This document shows, one piece after another, positions 1,523-21,428 of a DNA stretch of 21,428 bases. Positions within the stretch are counted from its first letter, which is position 1; every line of letters begins with the position of its first letter. Source of the stretch: a virus; IMG/VR virus record IMGVR_UViG_3300027797_001023, positions 1-21,428 of that record; one strand, written 5' to 3'. The notes beneath the pieces were generated by a model. It was given only the letters and a program-made list of their open reading frames with translations, did not search any database and had not been told where the DNA came from. The translations under genes and the position numbers were made by a program.

Positions 1523-2017
1523 TTATTTAAGTGCTGTCTCAAGCCAAGGCTTACAGTTTTCCCATGTGGTGAATACATGTGCCACACCCCCAACTGCTTG
1601 CCACTCTTGACAATTGCTGTGGCGATCATCAATTAAAATGTCGCCCGGGTTCTTGCAATGCCTCCATTTGTCATGGCTGAATGGTCCTATAGTGACAGGC
1701 ACCCCAGGGAAGTGATCGAGTGCCCACATGACTTTGTCACTGGCAGCCAGCGGCATACTATAGTCGTGTGGTAGTGCTGTGAGAAAACGCAAATGGTATT
1801 GAGGATTTCGATCAATGTATGCTTTACACATATTAACTAATTCATGTGCTCCTGTCATCAAGGGCAAATTGCGATAAAATCGCATGTCGTCCTTAACTCT
1901 GTCCCATTCTTCTTGTGGAATACGCTCGCCATTCTTGTCCCAACGTGTTTTAAGAACTTGTTGTGCTTGGCCGTGCCAATCTGCAACAACATCATCCATG
2001 TCTAAGTATATGTTCAT
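1523..2017 (-). CDS. 5'(3')-deoxyribonucleotidase-like HAD phosphatase
   Basis: A 164-residue HAD-superfamily protein. The nucleophile motif is LDMDDVVADW (D6 and D8 being the DxD pair), the second motif is the FLTALPH strand (T80), a candidate motif III lysine is K117 and the final acidic motif is ILIDDR (D130, D131). This matches the short 5'-nucleotidase group, which removes phosphate from (deoxy)nucleoside monophosphates in the cytoplasm. In a phage it may trim dNMPs or adjust pools together with the ribonucleotide reductase further along. The start at 2017 is forced, because the next Met is inside the DxD motif. There is no Shine-Dalgarno sequence. Instead a near-consensus sigma70 promoter ends five bases before the ATG, so the mRNA may be leaderless. 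The convergent 3' end lies 10 bases from the glycosyltransferase stop. Confidence 0.8.
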   Translation of the reverse strand: MNIYLDMDDVVADWHGQAQQVLKTRWDKNGERIPQEEWDRVKDDMRFYRNLPLMTGAHELVNMCKAYIDRNPQYHLRFLTALPHDYSMPLAASDKVMWALDHFPGVPVTIGPFSHDKWRHCKNPGDILIDDRHSNCQEWQAVGGVAHVFTTWENCKPWLETALK

Positions 2018-3191: not shown

Positions 3192-3767
3192 TTATTTTCC
3201 GAACTTTTTTACTCGTTCCTTAATAAGGTTTACCACTTGGTCACTGAGCACTACTTCATAATGGTTGTATTCAACTTCCACTAATTCCATATCAGCATGA
3301 TGTTTTTGACTGCTGATAGTTACTACTCCATCGTTGGCTTCGTGCATAAAAGGGCTTTGTCCCTTTACAGTCACAATATTAGTCCAAGGATGTTGTATCT
3401 TGATCTTACTGGCCTGCTTCATTACCCAACTACTAGGCCCAATGTCACGCATGAGCCTACTAAACGGTAAGAAGTACTGGGCATAGTCCGCTACTTCAGC
3501 ACCACCATACGGAGTGCTTAGAGTCACAGCACCTTTAACAGCACTAGGCATTGAGTTGGCCAAATGTAGGCTGTAGATACCGCCCAGACTATGTGCAACA
3601 AACACCAGGTCCTTTTGGTCCTGTAATGTTGCCTGCATGTCTTTTAGGTTGTTTTCAAACCCATTACGACTGTCGTAGTTGATAGCTACTCCGTCGCCTA
3701 ATTTACTTCTAATATAGTTGAAGCTTTCGCTGGTGGCATTAGCCCCGTGAATATACACCAAGTTCAT
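3192..3767 (-). CDS. Alpha/beta hydrolase (lipase/esterase-like)
   Basis: A 191-residue alpha/beta-hydrolase. The oxyanion-hole HG is at residues 7-8 (LVYIHGAN). The nucleophile elbow is VAHSLGG with Ser60; the position usually Gly is Ala58, as in many lipases. A candidate acid is Asp146 (ANDGVVT) and the candidate base His169 (EYNHYEV), all in correct order and spacing. It is close to the minimum size for the fold and lacks a large lid. Likely an esterase, lipase or thioesterase; the substrate is unknown. No signal peptide is seen, so it would act in the cytoplasm unless exported by holin-dependent lysis. It is the last gene of the reverse-strand group 4074-3192. No Shine-Dalgarno is present, and an AATAAATA late-type box lies only five bases before the ATG. 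Confidence 0.8.
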   Translation of the reverse strand: MNLVYIHGANATSESFNYIRSKLGDGVAINYDSRNGFENNLKDMQATLQDQKDLVFVAHSLGGIYSLHLANSMPSAVKGAVTLSTPYGGAEVADYAQYFLPFSRLMRDIGPSSWVMKQASKIKIQHPWTNIVTVKGQSPFMHEANDGVVTISSQKHHADMELVEVEYNHYEVVLSDQVVNLIKERVKKFGK

Positions 3768-4202: not shown

Positions 4203-4210
4203 GTTAAATA
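4203..4210 (+). promoter_or_regulatory. Possible late-promoter box GTTAAATA
   Basis: GTTAAATAC, two mismatches from TATAAATA, 18 bases before the ATG at 4229 and just downstream of a strong sigma70 promoter. The mismatches make it weak evidence alone. Confidence 0.35.
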
Positions 4211-4228
4211 CGTGATGGGAAACAATTT

Positions 4229-4516
4229 ATGAAACTTCGTACCAGATCAATTCTACAAGAACTTAATGAAATTGCCGAAGTACGCAACACGGATTCGTTG
4301 ATCGAAAGCCGTGCTACCAACATCATTAATTCTGCTATTAATCTGTTGGAAAGCATACACAAGCACTATGACGCTGACTCAGCGGATGAGCTTGAGCGCA
4401 GACTTATTAATGCCATCAAAGGACAAGATCCCAGTAAATTTACCCGCGGTGTACGAAGATTGGCAGAATCACGTAAAGCCAAAAGAAAACTAGAAGAATC
4501 CAATGACAATGAGTAA
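4229..4516 (+). CDS. Helical hypothetical protein, 95 aa
   Basis: Not recognised. The protein is charged and almost entirely helical: MKLRTRSILQELNEIAEVR, then a helix over about residues 28-45 and another from about 50-64, ending in a basic-then-acidic tail (RKAKRKLEESNDNE). It contains LIE|S at residues 24-27, which fits the T4 prohead-protease pattern (L/I)-x-E before a small residue, but one such match in a helical protein could be chance. It overlaps the next gene by 14 bases and is first in a three-gene operon behind a strong sigma70 promoter. Size and composition would fit a small core or adaptor protein; no function is assigned. Clear evidence for being real is codon continuity, operon overlap and promoter position. 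Confidence 0.65.
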   Translation: MKLRTRSILQELNEIAEVRNTDSLIESRATNIINSAINLLESIHKHYDADSADELERRLINAIKGQDPSKFTRGVRRLAESRKAKRKLEESNDNE

Positions 4517-5369
4517 TCTATTCGAAGGCGGCAATGTTTTTAAAACTGCCGATAAAAAATCACTAACACAGCGCATTGCTACCAAAGACGTGCCAGCCAC
4601 TGTTGACTTTATTGAAAAAATTACAGGCCTAGACTTTACAAAAGAATTAGATCCAGATGACAAGAAGCCAGTTAAGTGGCTAGGTACTACTGGTCGTAAA
4701 GAAGATCCAGATGGCACATTTGATCTAAACAGTTCTGGTGATTTGGATCTCAGCGTAGATGCTAGAGAAATCTCCAAAGAAGAACTAATTGCCAAATTGG
4801 CCGACTGGTGCAGAACCAATGGTGTTCCAGAAGAAGAAATTTTCAACCAAGGCACAAAGAAAACTGACGGATGGATCAAAGACGCTGGTGACAACGTGCA
4901 TTTTAGGACTCCAATTTCGGGCAGTCAAACTAATGGATTTGCGCAGTCCGATTTCATGCTCACAGTGAATCCCAAATTCCAACAAGGATCTATGATCGGT
5001 GGCCGAGGACAATATCGCGGTGAACATCGTCACATTGTATTGAGTTCCATTGCTCGTGCTAGAGGATTTAAATATAGTCCCAAGTTTGGCCTACTTCACG
5101 GAGATACAAACGAACCTGTAGAAAACGGCGACGACTGGAATGTTATCGCAAAACAACTGTTAGGACAAACAGCTACTAACAAAGACGTCAAGAGTGTAGA
5201 TGGCATTGTTGCTTATATTATCAAACTGCCTAACTATGATGAACTTGTAGCAGGCGCTAGAGAAACACTGGGCAAGCAGGGCATAGAATTACCTGTTAAA
5301 GAAGCCTTTGAAAGCTACGTACCAGGAAGTAATGCTTGGATGCGTAGAATGATTAATATTGTAAAATGA
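4503..5369 (+). CDS. Predicted polymerase-beta-like nucleotidyltransferase
   Basis: A 288-residue protein with the signature of the polymerase-beta nucleotidyltransferase fold: a Gly-rich stretch (LGTTGR, residues 60-65), then SSGDLDLSVD (77-86), in which D80 and D82 fit the paired metal-binding acids, and a later strand FAQSDFMLTV (146-155), in which D150 fits the third catalytic acid. Such enzymes transfer a nucleotide to RNA, DNA, protein or small molecules; the acceptor here is unknown. The N-terminus reads SNLFE|GGN, matching the T4 prohead-protease pattern (L/I)-x-E|(A/G/S). An alternative start is the ATG at 4509, two codons later. It overlaps its upstream neighbour by 14 bases and the downstream ligase-like gene by four (ATGA), so the two are probably translated together. 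The fold is inferred from motifs, not shown by homology. Confidence 0.6.
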   Translation: MTMSNLFEGGNVFKTADKKSLTQRIATKDVPATVDFIEKITGLDFTKELDPDDKKPVKWLGTTGRKEDPDGTFDLNSSGDLDLSVDAREISKEELIAKLADWCRTNGVPEEEIFNQGTKKTDGWIKDAGDNVHFRTPISGSQTNGFAQSDFMLTVNPKFQQGSMIGGRGQYRGEHRHIVLSSIARARGFKYSPKFGLLHGDTNEPVENGDDWNVIAKQLLGQTATNKDVKSVDGIVAYIIKLPNYDELVAGARETLGKQGIELPVKEAFESYVPGSNAWMRRMINIVK

Positions 5370-6463
5370 GAGCATTTGAATTCCTAACTGAAGCTGACGC
5401 ACCTCCTGCCAAGAAAGTTGGCAGAGAGTTTAACCACCTAGAAGACAAGGTGTTTGCAGAAGACAATGGTGCTGTCAAAGCCATCCAAATTCTCAAAGAC
5501 CTGGCCAGTCCCGATACCAGCATCACCATCAAGTGGGACGGCAATCCCACAGTCTATTGGGGACGTGAAGAAGATGGCACATTCCGTATGGTGGGCAAGA
5601 ACAACTGGGGACGTGAAGAAGGTAAAAGCTCCAGTCCAGAAGAACTAAAACAATTTATCATGAGTCGTGGCAAGGGCGAAGAATGGCGTGAGAAGTTTGC
5701 AGGAGATATGGCAGCACTATGGCCCATCTTTGAAAAGGCAACTCCTACAGAATTCCGTGGTTATGTCTATGGAGATATTCTTTTCCATCCGGGTAAACCT
5801 TATAAAGGCGGTGATGGTCGTATATCGTTCACACCTAATCAAACAACCTATGCTGTAGCAGGTACCAGTGAAGTTGGTCGTCAGTTGGCCAAGGCCAAAG
5901 TGGCAGTGGCCGCACACAAGGTATTCAGCTACTTTGGAGACAAGAGTGGTGAGGACTTTACTGATCCCGAGCAGTTTAGTGCCAACCCAGAACTAAAAGT
6001 ATTTGGCCTAACCAGTGTGAGTCATAGGCCAGCAGTTGGTGCAGAAAATCTTGCCAAAATTGAAGCCCTAGCTAAAAATCAACAGGCCATTGATAAATTG
6101 TTAGCACCTGTAACAGGCATGAGCTATTTGCGCGATGAGATTTACAAATTTGTTAATACCCAGTCAAAAGACAAACAACTAGACAATATCAACACCGATG
6201 CGTTCATGGCATTTGTAGGCAAGATGCCCGTCAAGGCTGCTAAAATAGCTGCACACAATGAAAAACATCCAGGAGTAATGGACACGATGTTTGAGCTAGT
6301 TCGAGAGATCATGGCGGCCAAAGACGAAGTGATCCGTGAGCTAGATAGTGCCGAGGGTGACATCACAGCCACTACAGGCGGCAAGCCAGGTGGTGAAGGC
6401 TATGTTGCTGGTGGATCAAAGCTGGTACCTAGAGACCGCTGGACTCCGTTTAGAGCCGACTAA
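5366..6463 (+). CDS. Ligase-like nucleotidyltransferase-fold protein
   Basis: A 365-residue protein with motifs resembling ATP-dependent nucleic-acid ligases: IKWDGNP (K56-W-D-G59) fits motif I, where Lys is adenylylated; RGYVYGDILF (131-140) sits like motif III; and EGYVAGGSKLVPRD (344-357) resembles motifs IV and V (EG-V and K-V). The order is right, but the EGYV block is unusually far along and no C-terminal OB domain is seen. I recall similar KWDG proteins of unknown function in marine T4-type phages. The N-terminus MRAFEFLTE|ADAPP looks like the T4 capsid-targeting sequence with its protease site after Glu9. The start is fixed by an ATGA overlap with the nucleotidyltransferase gene. Alternatives: a catalytically dead ligase fold or a guanylyl/adenylyltransferase. 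Biochemical activity is untested. Confidence 0.6.
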   Translation: MRAFEFLTEADAPPAKKVGREFNHLEDKVFAEDNGAVKAIQILKDLASPDTSITIKWDGNPTVYWGREEDGTFRMVGKNNWGREEGKSSSPEELKQFIMSRGKGEEWREKFAGDMAALWPIFEKATPTEFRGYVYGDILFHPGKPYKGGDGRISFTPNQTTYAVAGTSEVGRQLAKAKVAVAAHKVFSYFGDKSGEDFTDPEQFSANPELKVFGLTSVSHRPAVGAENLAKIEALAKNQQAIDKLLAPVTGMSYLRDEIYKFVNTQSKDKQLDNINTDAFMAFVGKMPVKAAKIAAHNEKHPGVMDTMFELVREIMAAKDEVIRELDSAEGDITATTGGKPGGEGYVAGGSKLVPRDRWTPFRAD

Positions 6464-18957: not shown

Positions 18958-21428
18958 GCGATACTGGAAGCATTTTATTAAGAAGAGGGCCTACAACAGA
19001 TAGGCTAGCGTTTGTTCCTTTGGATGGCGAGATCATTTATGATAGTGATCTTAAAAAGGTATATGTAGGTGACGGTGAAATCTACGGTGGCAATGCTGTT
19101 ACGTTTGGCGGCACCACTAGTAATGTATATTATGTAACATCTGAAGGCAAAGACAATGATGTAAGTCATGACGGAACCAGTATAGATAGAGCGTTCGCAT
19201 CAGTTAAAAAAGCCTGTGAAGTAGCAGGCGCTGGTGTACAATATGCAAATGCCACATACCTAATAACACAAAATAAAAGCTGGTTGGTTACAGAAATGTA
19301 TCAATGGATGCTTTATCAAAAAGCAAATAGCACTAATGGATTTACTCCAAATTCAGTATTTGATCAAACAGCAACATTAAGAGATGCAAACTATATTGTT
19401 GATGCTGTCATATATGATTTATCACGCAATGGTAATTTTAGAACAGTTGCTTCTACGTTAACATACTTTAAACAAGATGCCGTTAATACTTTTTATAATA
19501 CTGACACTGCGGCAGCAATGCCGTACATTATATCATCGTTAACGTATTTAAGAAGCCTAATACTAACAGTTATTACCAATACTGCACCAGCACAAAACTA
19601 TCAAAGTTTAAACAATGTTGGTAGTCCCATAACACAATTAATTGATTTAACTAAGACTGCTGAGACTGGTGCTAATGCTTACATCACAAATTTATTCAAT
19701 ATATTATTACCCGCTCTAACAGCACAGTCAACAGCATCAATACCAACAGCAACTACTGGAGTCAATGCCACAATCTATGTAAAAACTGGAACATATTCTG
19801 AACAGCTACCAATTATAGTTCCTGAGAATACGGCCATTTTGGGTGACAGTATTCGCAACACATTTATACAACCTAAAACTGGTCTAAGTGATGATGGCGT
19901 GACTGCAAACAATCTTAGTAAGATGTTTTTAGTAAGTGATGGTGCAATATTAAAAAATATAACAGTAAAAGGCATGACTGGGTTTACACCAAATCCAGCG
20001 AGTCCAACAAATATTAACACAGCAACTATTGGAGGCATATTTGTAGCGTTCAATCCAGCAAGTCCTATTATTAATAAAAGTCCATACATTATTGAATGTA
20101 GTAGTTTTAGTTCAGGCGGCATTGGCGTAGTAGTTGACGGCACAGTACATAGATCTGGAAACAAGAGCATGGTGTTCCACGGCTATACCAATATCAATGA
20201 TGATGGAATAGGTTTTTGGATCAAAGATGCAGGGCGAGCAGAAATTGTAAGTTGTTTCACATATTATTGTTACATAGGTTATGTTGCCAGCGGCGGCGGC
20301 ATCATACGAAGTCTAAACGGCAATAACAGTTATGGCACATACGGTGCCATTAGTTACGGCAACGATTCAACTGAAACAACAGTGGGCGGTTCTCTCTACG
20401 GTACTCAGTTACTTTACGATACTGATTTCTCAGTGGGCACTATTGCTGTTGGTAATACCATTACTGGTGCAACTAGTGGTGCAACTGGTACAGTACTAAG
20501 TGTTGTTGCAGTTTATAGTAAAATACACTACAAGGCAATAAGTGGCACATTTACAGCGGGTGAAACAATTAGTAATGGTGCTGGAGCAAGTACAAAAATC
20601 AAAGCGGGTAGTGTAACAGGACAGTTTGGATTTACCTTGTATGTTAACAATTTAACACCAGTTCCTAAAGCTGGTGGATCAATTGAATTTGTCACAGGTG
20701 ATACTGGTACATATGTTATTCAAAGTGTAAGCGGATATGATCCAGCTACTGGCCAAGCTATTATTGTTCTAGCCAATGAAAAACCCACAGCAAGCAACGA
20801 TGGCGTATCCATACGTATACGTTATAGATATAGCAGTTGTCGAATAACTGGACACGACTTTTTAAGTATTGGCACTGGCGGTACGGCAACTACTAACTAT
20901 CCTTTCATTCCAATCACACCCCCAAGTCAAGGCAACGAAATTATTGAAGAAGCTACTGGTCGTGTTTACTATATTAGCACAGACCAAGATGGCAATTTTA
21001 GAGTAGGTAACTATTTTAGAATTAATCAAAGTACTGGGGTCGCCACACTTAACACAAGTGCATTTGATCTAAGCGGATTAAACACACTTAACGTTGCGGC
21101 ATTGGGTGGTATTGTTGGTGAAACAATTAACGAATTCAGTAGCGATCCTTTATTGAGTGGTGACAGTAATTTGGCAGTGCCTACAGAATTTGCTGTGAGA
21201 AATTACTTTACACAAATATCAACTAATGTAGTACCAGCAACCACTAACACATACAATTTGGGTAGTACAACTAAAAACTGGAATAACTTATATGTTACCA
21301 CCATAAATGGAACTACTTTAAATGTTACATCACTAAATCTTGGCAGTAGTCTAATATTTGAAGGTGCAACAGCTGATGCATTTGAAACAACTCTACACGT
21401 AACTGACCCTACAGCAGATCGCACATTA
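18954..21428 (+). CDS. Large tail adhesin with tropism-type N-domain (3' end outside window)
   Basis: The frame opens at the ATG overlapping the previous TGA and stays open for 825 codons to the window edge. Residues about 6-45 (ILLRRGPTTDRLAF, DGEIIYDSD, KVYVGDG) match the N-domain of tropism-determinant fibres, as in the spike at 11298. Next is a YYVTSEGKDND segment, then a large beta-helix-like region (TIYVKTGTYSEQLPI and VPENTAILGD, about 265-287). Two similar modules, TITGATSGATGTV (about 502-514) and FTAGETISNGAGAST (about 530-544), follow, then YYISTDQDGNFRVGNYF (about 675-691). The end, NTYNLGSTTKNWNNLYV, is a module often found before intramolecular chaperone domains. It is probably a long tail-fibre-like protein determining host binding. 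Confidence 0.85.
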   Translation, partial: MSDTGSILLRRGPTTDRLAFVPLDGEIIYDSDLKKVYVGDGEIYGGNAVTFGGTTSNVYYVTSEGKDNDVSHDGTSIDRAFASVKKACEVAGAGVQYANATYLITQNKSWLVTEMYQWMLYQKANSTNGFTPNSVFDQTATLRDANYIVDAVIYDLSRNGNFRTVASTLTYFKQDAVNTFYNTDTAAAMPYIISSLTYLRSLILTVITNTAPAQNYQSLNNVGSPITQLIDLTKTAETGANAYITNLFNILLPALTAQSTASIPTATTGVNATIYVKTGTYSEQLPIIVPENTAILGDSIRNTFIQPKTGLSDDGVTANNLSKMFLVSDGAILKNITVKGMTGFTPNPASPTNINTATIGGIFVAFNPASPIINKSPYIIECSSFSSGGIGVVVDGTVHRSGNKSMVFHGYTNINDDGIGFWIKDAGRAEIVSCFTYYCYIGYVASGGGIIRSLNGNNSYGTYGAISYGNDSTETTVGGSLYGTQLLYDTDFSVGTIAVGNTITGATSGATGTVLSVVAVYSKIHYKAISGTFTAGETISNGAGASTKIKAGSVTGQFGFTLYVNNLTPVPKAGGSIEFVTGDTGTYVIQSVSGYDPATGQAIIVLANEKPTASNDGVSIRIRYRYSSCRITGHDFLSIGTGGTATTNYPFIPITPPSQGNEIIEEATGRVYYISTDQDGNFRVGNYFRINQSTGVATLNTSAFDLSGLNTLNVAALGGIVGETINEFSSDPLLSGDSNLAVPTEFAVRNYFTQISTNVVPATTNTYNLGSTTKNWNNLYVTTINGTTLNVTSLNLGSSLIFEGATADAFETTLHVTDPTADRTL

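Follow-up and report, generated by a model that had tools for sequence, protein, structure and literature searches.

A conserved T4-like N-terminal tag predicts head packaging of a ligase-like DUF6267 protein, and possibly of its nucleotidyltransferase partner, in large phages

Two overlapping genes of a freshwater phage raise the question of whether enzymes can be loaded into the head and delivered with the DNA. The stretch of DNA analysed here (the window) is a complete IMG/VR record of 21,428 bases and corresponds to a phage fragment, from a large freshwater virus infecting bacteria. The first-pass annotation had proposed that the two proteins, a nucleotidyltransferase and a ligase-like enzyme, both start with a short segment ending in a T4-type (L/I)-x-E site, the motif cleaved in T4 (PMC9026906). 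We found both ORFs and confirmed the two motifs, MTMSNLFE|GGNVF in the first protein and MRAFEFLTE|ADAPP in the second. The locus comprises the following features:

4205-4211, plus strand: TAAATAC, a late-promoter-like box 5' of the three-gene operon (enriched upstream of genes in relatives)
4229-4516, plus strand: upstream gene (MKLRTRSILQEL...), matching PHROG 11854 'virion structural protein' (hmmscan, E 5e-20)
4503-5369, plus strand: Pol-beta-superfamily nucleotidyltransferase (NTase), 288 aa (Foldseek; invariant D80, D82 and D150)
5366-6463, plus strand: DUF6267 protein, 365 aa, likely ligase-like (PF19782, E 3.7e-18; covalent nucleotidyltransferase motifs)

The three genes form a tight run with an overlap at every junction: the NTase starts inside the upstream ORF, and the NTase and DUF6267 ORFs share 4 nt (ATGA). 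The PHROG 11854 gene is kept upstream of the NTase/DUF6267 pair in most loci. In two large relatives of the window phage, G001 (353 kb) and G002, TAAATAC occurs at most 60 nt upstream of 27 genes (2.3 expected) and 25 genes (1.7 expected), respectively, and the control heptamers CAAATAC and TAAATCC show no enrichment upstream of genes in either genome. The exact T4 late promoter TATAAATA was not found upstream of the pair; the broader box TAAATAC is present there and resembles it, and the run is therefore probably expressed late, as packaging would need. Elsewhere, the left arm of the window carries genes for a 5'-nucleotidase (NT5C; 1523-2017, minus strand), a fatty acid desaturase (2067-2768) and an alpha/beta hydrolase (3192-3767, minus strand), and a ribonucleotide reductase cluster holds, between nrdA and nrdB, a gene of the class II aldolase family (PF00596; 15658-16308).

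The proposed nucleotidyltransferase identity of the first protein is borne out by its fold. Foldseek matched it to polymerases beta and lambda (E 7.5e-5 to 1e-3) with low TM-scores (about 0.37), so that the match is limited to the core, and its DxD and third aspartate (D80, D82 and D150) are invariant in the alignment. The protein has no Pfam or PHROG match, tblastn found no counterpart of it in isolate phages, and a sequence search of the PDB returned nothing useful for it or for the DUF6267 protein. We rejected its identification as RlaP, there being no PF10127 match in the Pfam search; the same profile is absent from G001, G002 and four cyanophage/pelagiphage genomes. A CCA-adding enzyme was rejected as well, since the PolyA_pol head domain (PF01743) does not match; a CCA-adding enzyme is present as a separate gene in loci of the L475 type described below.

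The second protein is likely ligase-like, judging from its motifs and fold matches, as the annotation had suggested. Its principal motifs are located as follows:

5531-5542, plus strand: ligase motif I, K56-W-D-G59 (invariant in 32 representatives and also present in cyanophage homologues)
6395-6433, plus strand: putative ligase motifs IV and V, EGYV...KLVPR (G345, K352, V354 and R356 invariant, E344 nearly so)

Motifs I, III, IV and V occur in order (K56-W-D-G59, F130-x-G132...D137, E344-G345 and K352-x-V354). The best Foldseek matches are nearly all DNA or RNA ligases, including DNA ligase IV, the tRNA ligase Trl1 and T4 Rnl1 among the top ones, each of them individually insignificant (best E 0.029) and with low TM-scores. 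An Rnl2-type RNA ligase (PF09414) was rejected, PF19782 alone being above the cut-off; PF09414 was not found by profile in G001 or G002 either, and both genomes encode a separate DNA ligase. No relative of DUF6267 was found in bacterial genomes.

The question of packaging turns on the N-terminus of this second protein:

5366-5392, plus strand: MRAFEFLTE, tag of the DUF6267 protein, a predicted capsid-targeting sequence with a putative E9|A10 cleavage site (homologue conservation, portability, pLDDT)

As a yardstick, we used the T4 internal proteins IPII and IPIII, whose N-terminus reads MKTYQEFIAE|A. Among DUF6267 homologues with complete N-termini, 213 of 215 carry M(R)x[FWY]E[FLI]LxE, or a near variant of it, at the start, and MRAFEFLTE or MRAFEFLIE is retained at 32-36% overall identity, so that the alignment of N-termini suggested in the first-pass annotation speaks for a conserved tag on this protein. 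Position 4 of the segment is aromatic, as it is in T4, and the segment ends in LTE|A or variants; compared with T4, it is one residue shorter and frequently has D or K in place of A at P1'. The AlphaFold model has pLDDT below 50 at residues 1-20, order starting after the tag. The cyanophage DUF6267 (T4-GC71) proteins that we examined have no tag.

A strict pattern modelled on the IPII/IPIII layout, which in T4 matches those two proteins alone, was found in six phage genomes at 14 of 2611 candidate starts against one of 6357 internal methionines (Fisher p=3e-7), with 1.3 matches expected in all after column shuffling. This pattern, checked on T4, superseded an earlier and looser one that gave no significant enrichment. 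A match is not proof for any single protein, because at least one of the 14, the ferredoxin of the cyanophage P-TIM40, is a clear false positive. For the DUF6267 tag, a chance origin is ruled out by the 213/215 conservation together with the enrichment of the strict pattern at starts. An origin as a piece of the enzyme fold is likewise ruled out, the model being disordered there and the tag being, on a CCA-adding enzyme, an N-terminal extension that three isolate homologues lack. In T4 itself, a 54-residue ORF (18966-19130, minus strand) begins with MKTFKEFIKED, close to the IPII/IPIII leader.

At a number of loci (L007:5082-6281, L017:1865-3109, L048, L055, L059, L104, L106-L108, L147 and L148), a Cys/Lys-rich module (KWSKKYKSSINCSNPKGFSQKAHCAGRKK) is inserted directly after MRAFEFLTE and is usually followed by NESIYE or similar; the border of the tag is therefore a module junction. 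The same module occurs in cyanophage proteins, mostly after E|GWS or E|SWS.

Is the tag confined to DUF6267? A scan for ATG starts encoding MRAFEFLxE gave 84 tag starts, of which 63 are DUF6267 by blastp. The remaining ones are mostly on unrelated proteins. Profile matches mark a CCA-adding enzyme (PF01743, E 2e-36) and a GH19 hydrolase (PF00182, E 2e-12); the others include a second NTase and a family whose GD...VEVK motif, judged by eye, is possibly nuclease-like, and several other carriers have no profile match. The CCA-adding enzyme at L475:5416-6558 starts with MRAFEFLIE, directly follows an NTase of the window type and overlaps by 4 nt into a tagged DUF6267 gene; the pair formed by the tagged CCA-adding enzyme and the tagged DUF6267 protein recurs in L501 and L502. 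Three isolate CCA-adding enzymes used for comparison have no tag, and the enzyme is absent from G001 and G002. The tag is encoded by 55 distinct DNA versions, which indicates selection on the peptide; these versions being synonymous or near-synonymous, a single copied DNA cassette is an unlikely source of the conservation.

A second scan, for MKTFxEFLxEA, gave 124 starts in 31 clusters without mutual similarity, and Pfam searches of ten clusters gave one match only, a double-psi beta-barrel (DPBB_1, PF03330). The presence of a T4-like tag on many unrelated enzymes suggests that related phages probably carry ready-made enzymes into the infected cell. Some of the MKTFxEFLxEA clusters (L614, L581, L649, L593, L605, L634 and others) look like ADP-ribosyltransferases or metallopeptidases by eye. 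In S-CRM01, T4-type tags are present on a GNAT-like acetyltransferase (139045-139440, MKTFDEFLTE; a weak match, below the cut-off) and on a weakly kinase-like protein (101508-103973, MISFDQFLSE). The large relatives encode further carriers of the strict tag at G001:38809-40233, G002:9351-10478 and G001:269523-270083; the last of these has a TAAATAC box and a match to PHROG 14802 'virion structural protein'.

A link between such a leader and the virion comes from cyanophages. In purified S-SM1 virions, 41 proteins have been reported, one of them the putative cytidylyltransferase T4-GC190 (Sullivan et al., 2010; PMC3037559). The gene for this protein begins with MKKFSAFLNE|AERS, a layout kept in all 140 homologues with readable starts, with a linker of 20-87 residues to the enzyme domain. 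DUF6267 (T4-GC71) adjoins T4-GC190 in S-SM1, S-WAM1 and P-TIM40. In S-PM2 (NC_006820, 103025-104804), DUF6267 is divided between two annotated ORFs, and the second runs on into the cytidylyltransferase; the annotated GC190 ORF thus starts with the C-terminal half of DUF6267, which is apparently a fusion partner of the cytidylyltransferase in this phage. PHROG 455 covers both proteins. As the cyanophage DUF6267 proteins have no tag, the tagged member is the partner in cyanophages and DUF6267 itself in the clade of the window. The literature covered, which is incomplete, describes capsid-targeting tags in cyanophages no further than a general T4 review.

A protease able to process such leaders is encoded in the relatives: a gp21-type (S77) prohead protease was detected in both G001 and G002 (E about 1e-24), the window being a 21 kb fragment. 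Both relatives also have an LAE|S or LSE|S sequence in the major capsid protein, close to residue 41, and these predicted sites are consistent with a gp21-type specificity shared with the tag. Altogether, the DUF6267 protein is likely packaged in the head, because its tag is conserved, portable, T4-like in layout and disordered, and because a tagged relative of its partner was reported in virions, the relatives encode a gp21-type protease and a late-type box precedes the run.

Two other readings of the tag were weighed. It might be an intracellular sorting or binding signal with no role in the capsid, for instance a handle for a phage-made complex; any short, conserved and portable leader would look identical, and the clade is known from sequence alone. 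We consider this very improbable, given a layout that matches IPII/IPIII, the S-SM1 virion protein, whose leader is of the same kind, the gp21-type protease of the relatives and the late-type box. Slightly less improbable, yet still hardly to be expected, is that tagged proteins enter the prohead core and serve head assembly, or remain there, instead of acting as host effectors. T4 IPIII influences head assembly and its host role is only partly known, and the gene upstream of the pair belongs to a PHROG virion structural family. Against such a structural role, the tag sits on enzymes from unrelated families whose catalytic residues are conserved; moreover, IPI and Alt of T4 exert their effects in the host once injected, and infection of one E. 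coli strain requires IPIII.

For the NTase, the leader is of another kind:

4503-4526, plus strand: MTMSNLFE, leader of the NTase with a possible E8|G9 cleavage site ([LI]xE before GG conserved; weak alone)

Compared with the T4-type tag of about 10 residues, in which positions 4 and 7 serve targeting, this leader has no basic residue 2 and no aromatic residue at position 4, and shares the [LI]xE site only. The leader varies from 4 to 8 residues across homologues, down to MILLE, and E8-G9-G10 are invariant in 23 representatives; residues 1-8 have pLDDT below 50 in the AlphaFold model. An [LI]xE followed by A, G or S within the first 12 residues is found at only 0.7-3.0% of candidate starts. 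It may be that LFE|GGN is a coincidence, the conserved start of the NTase fold, and that the ligase-like protein alone is packaged. We give this reading slightly less than an even chance: the conserved stretch continues through GGNVFK and could belong to the fold, short starts of the general form M..[LI][FL]E show a weak (1.8-fold) enrichment, and as few as 4 residues precede the glutamate in some homologues. On the other side, [LI]xE before GGN is kept by every NTase homologue listed, and comparable short leaders (MKLLELFE and MLLLELFE) open the HIGH-motif NTases of G001 and G002, whose cyanophage homologue has the full tag and is reported as a virion protein. The housekeeping-type relatives of these HIGH-motif NTases, and the DNA ligase, have no such leader. 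T4 Alt, an injected ADP-ribosyltransferase, has a 7-residue N-terminal propeptide (PMC9026906), so that a short NTase leader is compatible with processing. The annotation had seen capsid-targeting leaders on both proteins; this is supported for the ligase-like protein, which passed all the tests run, and the case for head packaging of the NTase is weak, its leader offering an [LI]xE|G site.

Taken together, these data suggest the following scheme, which we regard as rather probable as a whole. MRAFEFLTE would be a capsid-targeting sequence of the T4 type; the DUF6267 protein would be synthesized late, its tag would bind the prohead core and the protein would be trapped in the head, where a gp21-type protease would cut it after E9. 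The mature enzyme would then exit with the DNA into the next cell and cooperate with the Pol-beta-type NTase, which may enter likewise by means of its shorter LFE|G leader or bound to its partner. The likeliest job of the two would be RNA end repair, that is nucleotide addition followed by sealing, and tRNAs cut by host defences at entry are a possible substrate. We thus infer packaging and cleavage of both proteins, their injection and an RNA substrate, and our best guess is that the NTase and the DUF6267 protein are an injected RNA (tRNA) repair pair.

The alternative substrate is DNA: the pair could be packaged as proposed and repair phage DNA on entry, by gap filling in the manner of Pol X and nick sealing, with UV damage in surface water as one possible target. 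The NTase resembles DNA polymerases beta and lambda in fold, and the best fold matches of the DUF6267 protein include DNA ligase IV, although the RNA ligases Trl1 and T4 Rnl1 are also near the top. DNA repair nevertheless appears unlikely, since G001 and G002 already have a DNA ligase and since, in the phage family with both tagged genes, DUF6267 also has a tagged CCA-adding (tRNA) enzyme beside it, which favours RNA as the substrate. Counting against RNA repair, neither the NTase nor the DUF6267 protein matches the canonical tRNA-repair families, and G001 and G002 have no gene for a CCA-adding enzyme. In its favour, G001 carries about 32 tRNA genes, about 29 of them in one cluster at 58-66 kb and three near 327 kb; a possible tmRNA was also called in this genome.

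In jumbo phages, RNA ligases are described as partners of Pol-beta NTases (RlaP) and of CCA-adding enzymes in the repair of tRNAs that host immunity has cut (PMC7824862). T4 internal proteins are thought to counter first-response defences (PMC9391042) and, by analogy, a repair pair loaded in the head would fit the same logic. A broader and more tentative proposal, less likely than not, is that, in T4-like phages of lakes and seas, one portable tag loads various unrelated enzymes into the head, among them an injected RNA repair kit composed of the Pol-beta NTase, the CCA-adding enzyme and the ligase-like DUF6267 protein, which would restore tRNAs damaged by host immunity before phage expression. 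If so, N-termini would predict the cargo that a phage injects. Injected proteins are known for very few phages and, should the tag prove reliable as an address, sequence would reveal what thousands of uncultured T4-like phages inject; enzymes of the RNA-repair type would then be at work from the very moment of entry, which defence studies seldom consider.

Among known systems, the pairs of RlaP and RNA ligase in jumbo phages resemble the window pair in that an NTase of the Pol-beta superfamily adjoins a ligase-type enzyme, and a tRNA repair logic has been proposed for them, as we do here for the window pair (PMC7824862). The window pair differs in having no PF10127 or RNA_ligase PF09414 match, so that the kinship is by fold and not by family, and a packaging tag for RlaP is not described in the passages covered. 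T4 Alt, an enzyme located inside the head, has a very short propeptide at its N-terminus and in this is comparable to the NTase with its leader, but it is a different enzyme without sequence relation. The cyanophage T4-GC190 protein is a nucleotidyltransferase with the same kind of tag that adjoins DUF6267 or, in S-PM2, is joined to its C-terminal half; unlike the window NTase, it has a HIGH-motif fold, not a Pol-beta one, and it carries the tag itself, next to a DUF6267 protein without one. The closest likeness is with the capsid-targeting sequence of T4 IPII and IPIII (Mullaney and Black; PMC9026906), which is also N-terminal, about 10 residues long and portable, with a basic residue 2, an aromatic residue 4, a hydrophobic core and [LI]xE before the predicted cut, and a gp21-type protease is present both in T4 and in the relatives of the window phage. 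In contrast to the small host-specific inhibitors IPII and IPIII, the carriers here are conserved enzymes (ligase-like, CCA-adding and other NTases), and the tag on DUF6267 would thus put a known sorting device to new use.
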